Shown here piece after piece: positions 24,904 through 28,564 of a stretch of DNA of 64,000 nucleotides. The DNA is taken from positions 897,501-961,500 of the forward strand of contig NZ_AP014690.1 of the NCBI RefSeq assembly GCF_001547995.1. Direction: 5' to 3'. Positions within the stretch are counted from its first letter, which is position 1. Each line of letters starts with the position of its first letter. The position numbers and the translations under genes are program-made. The DNA comes from Asaia bogorensis NBRC 16594 (lineage in GTDB: Bacteria; Pseudomonadota; Alphaproteobacteria; Acetobacterales; Acetobacteraceae). Below the pieces are notes generated by a model that was not told the DNA's origin, did not search any database, and saw only the letters and a program-made list of their open reading frames with translations.

Positions 24904-25806
24904 ATGCCTGTTTTCGATCCGACCCGCCGCAAGGTGACGCGACTTCTGGGGGGCTCGCTGGCCACAGGTACGCTGCTCGGTGTGCGCGCTGCGCGTGCGG
25001 AAGGCCACCGGGCAGCCCATCACGCAGCGCAGGGGGCGGGCAGCCATCATCTGACGCCGCACGCCAGCGGCAAGGCGCCTGCGCTGGTAGGCAAGGCCGC
25101 ACCACCGCGCCCTGTGATCATGCTCGACCCCGGTCATGGAGGCAAAGACCCAGGGGCGATCGGTGTGAGCGGCACCTATGAGAAACACATTGCCGCGGCC
25201 GCAGCGCAGGAACTCTATCATCAGATTAGAAGTGCCGGACGCTATGATGTCGTGATGACGCGAGCGGACGATCATTTCATTCCGCTCGAGGGGCGCGTGG
25301 ATCTTGCGCACCGCCACAAGGCGCAGCTTTTCATTTCCATGCATGCTGATGCCCTTCATGACCCGGAGGTGAGGGGCGCCAGCGTTTATACGCTTTCCAA
25401 CGGTGCATCAGACGCGCAGACTGCCTCACTCGCCCAGACCGAGAACAGCGCCGACCGGTTTGCTGGCCCGGCGTTTCACGGCATGTCCTCCGAGGTGCAG
25501 GCCATCCTCGCCAGTCTGGTGAACGAGGAGACGAGGCGGGGGTCGGCGCATATGGCCGCCAATGTCGTATCAGCTTTCCAGCCGCGTATCGGCCTGCTGC
25601 GCCATCCCGCGCGCCATGCAGCCTTTGTCGTGCTCAAATCGGCGGATATTCCCTCTGTGCTGGTCGAAATGGGTTTCATGTCCAACCGGCATGACGAGGC
25701 GGCCCTGAGGCAGGGAGGCTATCGCAAGCAGGTGGCGACCGCCATGAGCGCGGCAATCGATCGCTATTTCGCCGGATCTGGCATGAATATTGCGCATTCG
25801 GGCTAG
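24904..25806 (+). CDS. N-acetylmuramoyl-L-alanine amidase, Tat-exported
   Basis: A 300-residue periplasmic zinc amidase (Amidase_3) that cleaves the stem peptide from MurNAc, usually during cell separation. The N-terminus DPTRRKVTRLLGGSLATG is a twin-arginine signal peptide followed by an ARA-type cleavage site. The catalytic domain begins near residue 75 with MLDPGHGGKDPGAIG (zinc His), has zinc or catalytic residues in FISMHADAL, and ends with SVLVEMGFMSNRHDE containing the catalytic Glu. It lacks an AMIN domain. The Tat genes in this same window would export it. The divergent neighbour is rne. Confidence 0.9.
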   Translation: MPVFDPTRRKVTRLLGGSLATGTLLGVRAARAEGHRAAHHAAQGAGSHHLTPHASGKAPALVGKAAPPRPVIMLDPGHGGKDPGAIGVSGTYEKHIAAAAAQELYHQIRSAGRYDVVMTRADDHFIPLEGRVDLAHRHKAQLFISMHADALHDPEVRGASVYTLSNGASDAQTASLAQTENSADRFAGPAFHGMSSEVQAILASLVNEETRRGSAHMAANVVSAFQPRIGLLRHPARHAAFVVLKSADIPSVLVEMGFMSNRHDEAALRQGGYRKQVATAMSAAIDRYFAGSGMNIAHSG

Positions 25807-25861
25807 AAAATGATGCGACTGCGCTAGGCAAGAGCTGGTCTTTTACAGTAGGAAGGGCGTC

Positions 25862-25966
25862 ATGAACATTCTGGCGCCCCTTTCAAGCATAGGATCCCGT
25901 GCAGCAGCACGCGCCGATCTATGCCCGGGCCTCCTTCTTCGTACGCTTCGACTTATCTGCCCCTGA
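25862..25966 (+). CDS. leuL: Putative leucine-rich leader peptide of leuA
   Basis: A 34-codon frame starts at ATG 25862 with AGGAAGGG placed four bases upstream and ends at TGA 25964. Its second half encodes LCPGLLLRTLRLIC, with Leu codons CTC CTT CTT, then CTT and CTT within nine codons. It ends 77 bp before leuA, and its stop codon lies inside the left arm of an 11-bp stem. These are the features of an amino-acid attenuation leader; scarcity of charged tRNA-Leu would stall the ribosome on the Leu run. The role is inferred; conservation in relatives has not been checked. Confidence 0.62.
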   Translation: MNILAPLSSIGSRAAARADLCPGLLLRTLRLICP

Positions 25967-26017
25967 GCGCATTTTGCGGCCGGTCCGACCGGCGCGTTCA
26001 GGGGTTACGATCCTGTT
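25960..26017 (+). promoter_or_regulatory. Attenuator-like RNA structure before leuA
   Basis: CCCCTGAGCGC (25960-25970) pairs over 11 bp, with one GU, with GCGTTCAGGGG (25994-26004). An inner stem GCCGGT-ccg-ACCGGC (25979-25993) stacks on it. A competing weak hairpin, CAGGG (25999-26003) with TCCTG (26011-26015) followed by TTGTTC, uses the same right arm. A ribosome stalled at the Leu codons would leave the 11-bp stem free; one finishing the leader would cover its left arm. The terminator half is weak, so control might instead be at translation. Confidence 0.5.
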
Positions 26018-26043
26018 GTTCAAAGCCACGAAAAGACAAAGCC

Positions 26044-27808: not shown

Positions 27809-28270
27809 CTAGTATCCGTAACCCTGGTTATAGGCTGGATAACCTTGCTGGGCCGGATACGCAGCCTGGGGCTGCGCGGGATAGGCCGGAGCGGCGTAGC
27901 CGTTCTGGCCATTATTGTAATAGGGCTGCTGATAGCCCTGTTGGGGCGGGGCCTGGTTGTAGTAACCACCCTGGTTGTAATACCCGCTTTGAGCGTAGCC
28001 CCCTCCAGGCCGGTTCGGCGTGGTGGCCGCACCACCAGCCGCGCCGACCAGTCCGCCTGCCAGCGCGCCGATCGCTGCTCCACGTCCGCCACCCGCAAGG
28101 GCGCCGATCGCCGCACCCGCACCGCCCCCGATCAGGGCGCCCGAACCGGCGCGCGAGCCCGGGTCATAGGGGCTGCCGCAGGCGCTGAGCAGCGTACAGA
28201 GACCCACCGTACCCAGAATAGCCAGTGGCCATTTGCGGCGTGAGGGGCGGGGCGAGGAAGCAAGTATCAT
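27809..28270 (-). CDS. Glycine-zipper lipoprotein with Tyr/Gln-rich tail
   Basis: A 153-residue lipoprotein. The signal peptide ends in lipobox LLSAC (Cys31). The mature region starts GSPYDPGSRAGSGALIGG and continues with two glycine-zipper helices of the GAAIGALAGGGRGAA type, which can pack in membranes. The C-terminal 65 residues are a repetitive tail rich in Tyr, Gln, Pro, Gly and Asn (GYYNQGGYYNQ, YPAQPQAAYPAQQGYP). It is a paralogue of the gene starting at 28564, 24 bp upstream, which lacks the tail. Related proteins are outer-membrane lipoproteins of uncertain function. Confidence 0.75.
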   Translation of the reverse strand: MILASSPRPSRRKWPLAILGTVGLCTLLSACGSPYDPGSRAGSGALIGGGAGAAIGALAGGGRGAAIGALAGGLVGAAGGAATTPNRPGGGYAQSGYYNQGGYYNQAPPQQGYQQPYYNNGQNGYAAPAYPAQPQAAYPAQQGYPAYNQGYGY

Positions 28271-28294: not shown

Positions 28295-28564
28295 TCAGTA
28301 ACCGGAACGCGGGCGATTGGGGGTGGTTGCGGCACCACCAGCAGCGCCCAGAGCGCCGCCCGCAAGAGCACCAATGGCAGCGCCACGGCCACCACCGGCC
28401 AGTGCACCAATGGCAGCGCCACCACCAGCACCGATCAGGGCGCCGGAACCAGCGCGTGCGCCGGGGTCATAAGGATTGCCGCAAGCGCTCAGGCCCAGCA
28501 TGCCGAGACAGGCCGAAGCGGCCAACAGCTTGCGCGAGCTACGGAAGGAAACACGCTTGGTCAT
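28295..28564 (-). CDS. Glycine-zipper lipoprotein, short paralogue
   Basis: An 89-residue lipoprotein whose signal peptide ends in lipobox GLSAC (Cys28). The mature part, starting GNPYDPGARAGSGALIG, matches residues 32-85 of the neighbouring downstream protein almost residue for residue, with the same two glycine-zipper repeats and the ending TTPNRP. The pair is a tandem duplication, 24 bp apart and likely cotranscribed. The gene after the duplication acquired or kept a Tyr/Gln-rich tail. No function is known to me. Confidence 0.75.
   Translation of the reverse strand: MTKRVSFRSSRKLLAASACLGMLGLSACGNPYDPGARAGSGALIGAGGGAAIGALAGGGRGAAIGALAGGALGAAGGAATTPNRPRSGY

Follow-up and report, generated by a model that had tools for sequence, protein, structure and literature searches.

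A Leu-codon leader upstream of leuA in Asaia bogorensis and other Alphaproteobacteria, probably a ribosome-mediated translational attenuator

The attenuator of the enterobacterial leu operon ends in a T-run terminator, and in the erm-type translational attenuators a ribosome stalled in the leader ORF exposes the Shine-Dalgarno (SD) site of the downstream gene. In Actinobacteria, Seliverstov et al. (2005) described the LEU element upstream of leuA, drawn with a pseudoknot and with a base stem between the run of Leu codons and the SD box of leuA, and these authors found leader translation unlikely as the mechanism and preferred a trans-acting factor (PMC1262725). Two actinobacterial leader peptides have been published, MRFGLLLLSCRGEGL-stop (PMC8079986) and MNRANLLLLRRGGSQA-stop (PMC5784534).

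The leuA gene in the window, i.e. the whole 64,000-nt stretch of DNA analysed here, taken from a genome of 3,198,265 bases, is preceded by a short ORF rich in Leu codons. On the 5' side of this leader is a putative gene resembling an N-acetylmuramoyl-L-alanine amidase (named from its sequence), which ends at position 25806. The features of the region are as follows, with P1, P2 and P3 denoting the three stems.

25850-25857, + strand: leader SD sequence AGGAAGGG, read in the sequence, 4 nt before the ATG
25862-25966, + strand: leader peptide ORF of 34 codons, MNILAPLSSIGSRAAARADLCPGLLLRTLRLICP-stop, with the tail LLLRTLRLICP-stop; from the sequence and the conserved tail
25938-25957, + strand: 5' strand of base stem P1, the Leu-codon run, which is the anti-SD strand; from the minimum free energy (MFE) structure and the cognate-versus-swapped pairing test
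25946-25955, + strand: near-invariant core CTTCGACTTA (codons Leu-Arg-Leu plus A); covariance-model match of 60.2 bits
25960-25970, + strand: 5' arm of the covarying stem P2, CCCCTGAGCGC, holding the leader stop TGA (25964-25966)
25979-25993, + strand: apical hairpin P3 (25979-25984 with 25988-25993), nested in P2 and variable between species; from the fold
25994-26004, + strand: 3' arm of the covarying stem P2, GCGTTCAGGGG
25999-26015, + strand: weak alternative hairpin CAGGG...TCCTG, a possible "terminator half" without a T run; read in the sequence, its pairing unsupported across species
26009-26032, + strand: 3' strand of base stem P1, overlapping the leuA SD region; 26028-26032 pair with 25938-25942
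26030-26036, + strand: GAAAAGA, which we take as the probable SD sequence of leuA, partly within P1
26044-27615, + strand: leuA, 2-isopropylmalate synthase, the presumed regulated gene; its start MTIIHPSFG is kept in relatives

The leader has 8 Leu codons among its 34, and at least five Leu within nine of the last 14 codons are found in just 4 of the 1858 stop-ended frames of the window. A sequence-only reading of this DNA had proposed a 34-codon frame with a good ribosome-binding site, five Leu codons within nine, and a stop buried in an 11-bp stem, and all three are borne out, with the five Leu codons in fact lying within eight (LLLRTLRL) and the stem formed by 25960-25970 and 25994-26004. 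The same reading had the stem compete with a downstream hairpin, and this part is not supported: the strong hairpin P3 is nested in P2 and stacks on it, and the sole competitor of P2 is a 5-bp stem between 25999-26003 and 26011-26015, with no T run and no terminator-like site. The leader region folds more stably than shuffled sequences (z -3.2), and in the MFE structure the Leu-codon stretch pairs across P2 and into the leuA SD region. Beyond leuA, on the - strand, two adjoining small lipoprotein-like ORFs (27809-28270 and 28295-28564) contain near-identical glycine-rich repeats, GSGALIGGGAGAAIGALAGGGRGAAIGALAGG, and look like a tandem duplication; the copy on the leuA side has a Gln/Tyr-rich end.

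Conservation was followed in a family set of 112 leuA upstream regions from Acetobacteraceae genomes. A frame ending in (L/I)RLxxP-stop or (L/I)RLxxPWA-stop is located 74-194 nt before leuA in 103 of them, and with a covariance model the leader is found in 111, since 8 of the 9 regions missed by the pattern are recovered, one of them, L047, as a partial match. A start lies exactly 34 codons before the stop in all eight readable congeners and near relatives. The bases CGACT, CCCC and the T after them do not vary in any of the sequences (103 of 103), and this holds even for the third position of CGA, a rare codon that makes up 6% of the Arg codons in the window genes (reference: the 32 long ORFs of the window). 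In the leaders that end in PWA-stop, TGA has become TGG and the stop is found two codons later with the RNA unchanged, CCCCUGGGC, indicating that it is the sequence of the stem that is conserved rather than the exact stop. The loss of the frame or the Leu codons in relatives, named by the sequence-only reading as the outcome that would speak against it, is thus not what is seen: frame, Leu codons and stop-codon stem are all conserved. The leuA leader is real and ancient, and conserved well past what chance would give. Two near relatives, L004 and L006, have lost one or two C from CCCC, by which the leader stop disappears and the frame continues, in L006 so far that the run-on frame would overlap the start of leuA; this is either an assembly error or a real variant with translational coupling.

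The stem around the stop codon covaries, a check that had also been suggested from the sequence. In 60 diverse sequences there are 13 double-changed cells in P2 against 4.4 in shuffles (0 of 500 shuffles), and in 61 model-aligned sequences, an alignment that is fitted to the structure, there are 43 against 4.9 expected (0 of 500), with 2-13 in the slid controls. Leader stops of the type UAA or UAG are accompanied by a U in the partner strand, and a change from CCC to CUC (Pro to Leu) is paired with a change from GGG to GAG. These compensatory changes prove stem P2, and since both the stop and the Pro to Leu changes are compensated, it is the RNA stem and not the peptide that is selected there; proline and the type of stop are free to vary as long as P2 is kept. 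A peptide-level arrest at Pro-stop, as in TnaC, is ruled out by the shifted stop of the PWA leaders and by the Pro to Leu change with a compensated stem. In six sequences (L082, L090, L092, L107, L112 and L113) P2 is followed immediately by another inverted repeat, CUCAGGGG-AA/GA-CCCCUGAG, which is perfect and lacks a T run.

The pairing of the Leu codons with the leuA SD region (P1) was assessed by the predicted duplex energy between a 23-nt Leu-codon segment and the region from P2 to leuA, from the same or from another species, after removal of row and column means. Own-species duplexes are stronger, at -17.4 kcal/mol, than swapped duplexes, at -13.7 kcal/mol (z -10.9, 67 sequences), and the same preference is seen in an independent GTDB set (z -5.7, n=40) and in a model-found set (z -5.9, n=34). 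When the test is limited to the 30 nt before leuA, i.e. the SD window, z is -8.2, -5.0 and -3.3 in the three sets. The controls with an upstream leader segment, the leuA coding start and the reversed Leu segment gave -0.7, -0.5 and -0.9 in the first set and -1.7, -0.9 and +0.6 in the second; of the two controls run in the third set, the upstream leader segment gave -2.2, which is not fully null, and the leuA coding start -1.3. Examples of the predicted duplexes are UUCUCUCGCU with AGCGAGAGAA (L069), GCUCUCGC with GCGAGAGC (L016), GUCCUUCG with CGAAGGAC (L127) and GCCUCACC with GGUGAGGC (L022).

Codon choice in the leader fits such a pairing. CUG makes up 13% of the Leu codons in the leader tails and 52% in the window genes, and CUC and CUU together make up 83% in the tails; these codons are able to pair with GGAG and AAGG, and CUC-CUU is the exact complement of AAGGAG. 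Masking of the Leu codons, in imitation of a stalled ribosome, raises the mean predicted accessibility of the SD from 0.30 to 0.45 in 142 sequences, with an increase of more than 0.1 in 78 and a decrease in 9, and from 0.27 to 0.43 in the window. In the window itself P1 is interrupted and covers the weak SD only partly, with a predicted probability of 0.46 for pairing between SD and Leu codons and z -1.2 against shuffles, so that the case is carried by the relatives. In a minority of species, e.g. in many with a spacing of 120-190 nt between leader and leuA, P1 cannot be made out clearly.

The element is not confined to the acetic acid bacteria. Its core is CUNCGACUUA-NNNN-CCCCURRGCG, followed by a stem with the 3' arm CGCUCAGGGG, and in frame the core reads nearly always Leu-Arg-Leu-x-x-Pro-(Trp-Ala)-stop. 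The pattern CGACTWANNNNCCCCTRRGC is found in 26 of 289 genomes of the class, in 25 cases upstream of leuA, and the reversed control pattern has a single match; the exact motif has no match in the sampled Pseudomonadota outside the Alphaproteobacteria. Scanning GTDB species yielded 80 loci that could be read, alphaproteobacterial wherever the record names a group below phylum, with 78 directly upstream of leuA and two that end at a contig edge. With the covariance model, the element is present in 86 of the 289 alphaproteobacterial genomes, in about 50 families, and all 40 of the weaker matches that were opened are upstream of leuA; in the GTDB scan and these model matches combined, 118 of 120 opened matches are located just 5' of leuA, the remaining two lying where a contig ends. 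In a second subclass of leaders, LLLLxxP-stop, a Leu codon CUN replaces CGA (L295, L297, L300, L304, L305, L308, L312, L315 and L318), and in several of these the stop is UAG and the partner strand matches it. The element also precedes a different type of leuA, with about 26-30% identity to the LeuA of the window (L164, L200, L293, L303, L317, L324 and L327). The switch is therefore not tied to one enzyme lineage, which suggests that it has been kept or acquired independently of the lineage of the leuA enzyme.

Taken together, the leader probably functions as a ribosome-mediated translational attenuator of leuA. It is a short ORF with codons for the end product of the pathway, in which ORF, ribosome-binding site, start, Leu enrichment and stop are conserved, and its RNA structure should depend on the position of the ribosome, as P1 and P2 covary and switching is predicted. 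We infer as follows how leuA responds to leucine, in what order the steps occur, and what P2 and the invariant CGA codon contribute. The Leu-codon segment 25938-25957 would pair with the 5' flank and the SD region of leuA (26009-26032), with P1 enclosing P2. When charged tRNA-Leu is plentiful, ribosomes should finish the leader, terminate at the UGA within P2 and depart, after which P1 would re-form, sequester the ribosome-binding site of leuA and shut the gene. When it is scarce, a ribosome would stall on the Leu codons (LLLR-LRL) and cover the 5' strand of P1, leaving the ribosome-binding site free so that leuA can be translated. The same nucleotides would thus serve as sensor, being Leu codons, and as anti-SD sequence. 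P2 probably holds the two strands of P1 near each other. At about 5 nt beyond the last Leu codon, it might slow the ribosome as well.

The sequence-only reading, by which leuA would respond to charged tRNA-Leu, is supported by the conservation of the leader; it had noted a weak terminator half and left it open whether transcription or translation is controlled; since the Leu codons covary with the leuA SD region and terminators are absent beyond chance, the evidence favours translation. A mixed control, in which the sequestered SD cuts the translation of leuA, the mRNA left untranslated is terminated by Rho and the level of transcript is affected too, would have the same anatomy and would need no T-run terminator. 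Rho-dependent polarity is known for untranslated mRNA, and this arrangement is inseparable by sequence from a purely translational attenuator; we nevertheless regard it as unlikely.

Classical transcription attenuation, with P2 as the antiterminator (helix 2:3) and, as a terminator formed when the ribosome arrives at the stop, a downstream hairpin in which the P2 3' arm is used again (helix 3:4), has slim odds. The arrangement does fit the trp/leu paradigm, with Leu codons followed by a stop codon inside P2. A perfect alternative hairpin, CUCAGGGG-AA-CCCCUGAG, follows directly after P2 in L082, L092, L107 and L112, and strong downstream partners for segment 3 (the P2 3' arm) are somewhat more frequent than in shuffles (19 of 142 at or below 5%), although the mean z of this segment against shuffles is just -0.23. 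Intrinsic terminators between leader and gene are no commoner than chance, however: T-run hairpins in the stretch from the stop stem to leuA occur in 3 of 142 sequences against 4.4 expected by shuffles, thus without excess, and a scan of the window for a σ70 promoter and an intrinsic terminator found none. Helix 2:3 is strongly supported, whereas 3:4 has no signal between species (z -0.1 and +3.2), in a test that is weak because segment 3 hardly varies. The 3:4 hairpin is therefore unsupported as a terminator, and classical attenuation would also leave the covariation of the Leu codons with the SD region unexplained.

It is more improbable still that a trans-acting factor, protein or tRNA, binds the conserved RNA and that the leader peptide is incidental. 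What speaks for such a factor is CGACUUA, near-invariant even at synonymous positions and unexplained by the stems, together with a mutation study of the Streptomyces coelicolor leader that, in the form in which PMC1262725 cites it, is at odds with classical attenuation. Against it, frame, start, Leu enrichment and stop are all conserved, many families swap CGA for a Leu codon (LLLLxxP-stop), so that CGA is not generally essential, and mutations in the Leu codons should also break the anti-SD pairing, so that odd mutants are expected under a translational attenuator too.

That there is no leader and leuA itself starts upstream, at ATG 25921, with the conserved bases as N-terminal coding sequence, can be practically dismissed: the leuA frame is open from this position in the window, but the opening is not shared by relatives, where open frames are mostly 525 to 600 aa with differing starts, the conservation tracks the leader frame and not that of leuA, and the LeuA alignment begins at MTIxHPSFG. 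The open stretch of 41 codons 5' of the leuA start (25921-26043, + strand) is absent in relatives and is probably due to chance.

Within the translational attenuator, the strict invariance of CGACUUA is not accounted for by P1 or P2. A downstream partner, GUYG, is mildly enriched (55 of 142 against 38 expected), which is too small an effect to explain it; our guess is a codon-pair pause ahead of P2. Tentatively, and with less than even confidence, the element might be a leuA switch in its own right across the class: the Leu codons would act as anti-SD, and the invariant CGA-CUU pair, with the stop-codon stem 5 nt further on, would act as a programmed pause that sets the sensitivity. It would then be either independent of the LEU element of Actinobacteria or anciently related to it. 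If the translational reading holds, leuA, the first committed step of leucine synthesis, is under translational attenuation in much of the Alphaproteobacteria, including acetic acid bacteria, Rhodospirillales, Geminicoccaceae, Thalassospira and many others, through an RNA element not represented in Rfam, and the complementarity of CUC-CUU and AAGGAG offers an easy explanation of how leucine leaders can act directly on translation.

Among known systems, the enterobacterial leu operon attenuator is similar in having a leader with Leu codons before a leucine biosynthesis gene and a fold that is selected by the position of the ribosome. The leuA element differs from it in having no terminator and no Rfam match: a search against Rfam 15, including Leu_leader and T-box, gave no match at the gathering score, and none up to E 5 for the 301-base region. 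No description of an alphaproteobacterial leuA leader was found in the open-access full-text literature; a survey of attenuators in proteobacteria by Vitreschak et al. (2004) may include some such leaders, so that priority is not certain. The likeness to the erm-type attenuators lies in the stalled leader ribosome that opens a downstream SD (cf. PMC5118997); there the signal is a drug-stalled ribosome, whereas in the leuA element the signal would come from Leu codons short of charged tRNA, and these codons themselves make up the anti-SD strand. Judged by architecture, the nearest known counterpart is the LEU element of Actinobacteria, which is likewise located 5' of leuA, with a short ORF containing a Leu run, a base stem between Leu codons and SD box, and no obvious terminator. 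The LEU element has a pseudoknot, whereas the alphaproteobacterial element has a nested covarying hairpin, P2, that holds the stop codon, with the core CUNCGACUUA-N4-CCCCURRGCG, and the two published actinobacterial leader peptides are without LRLxxP-stop. If the mechanism proposed here is true, it offers a testable reading of the LEU element, whose Leu-codon mutants, in the cited account of them, misfit classical attenuation.
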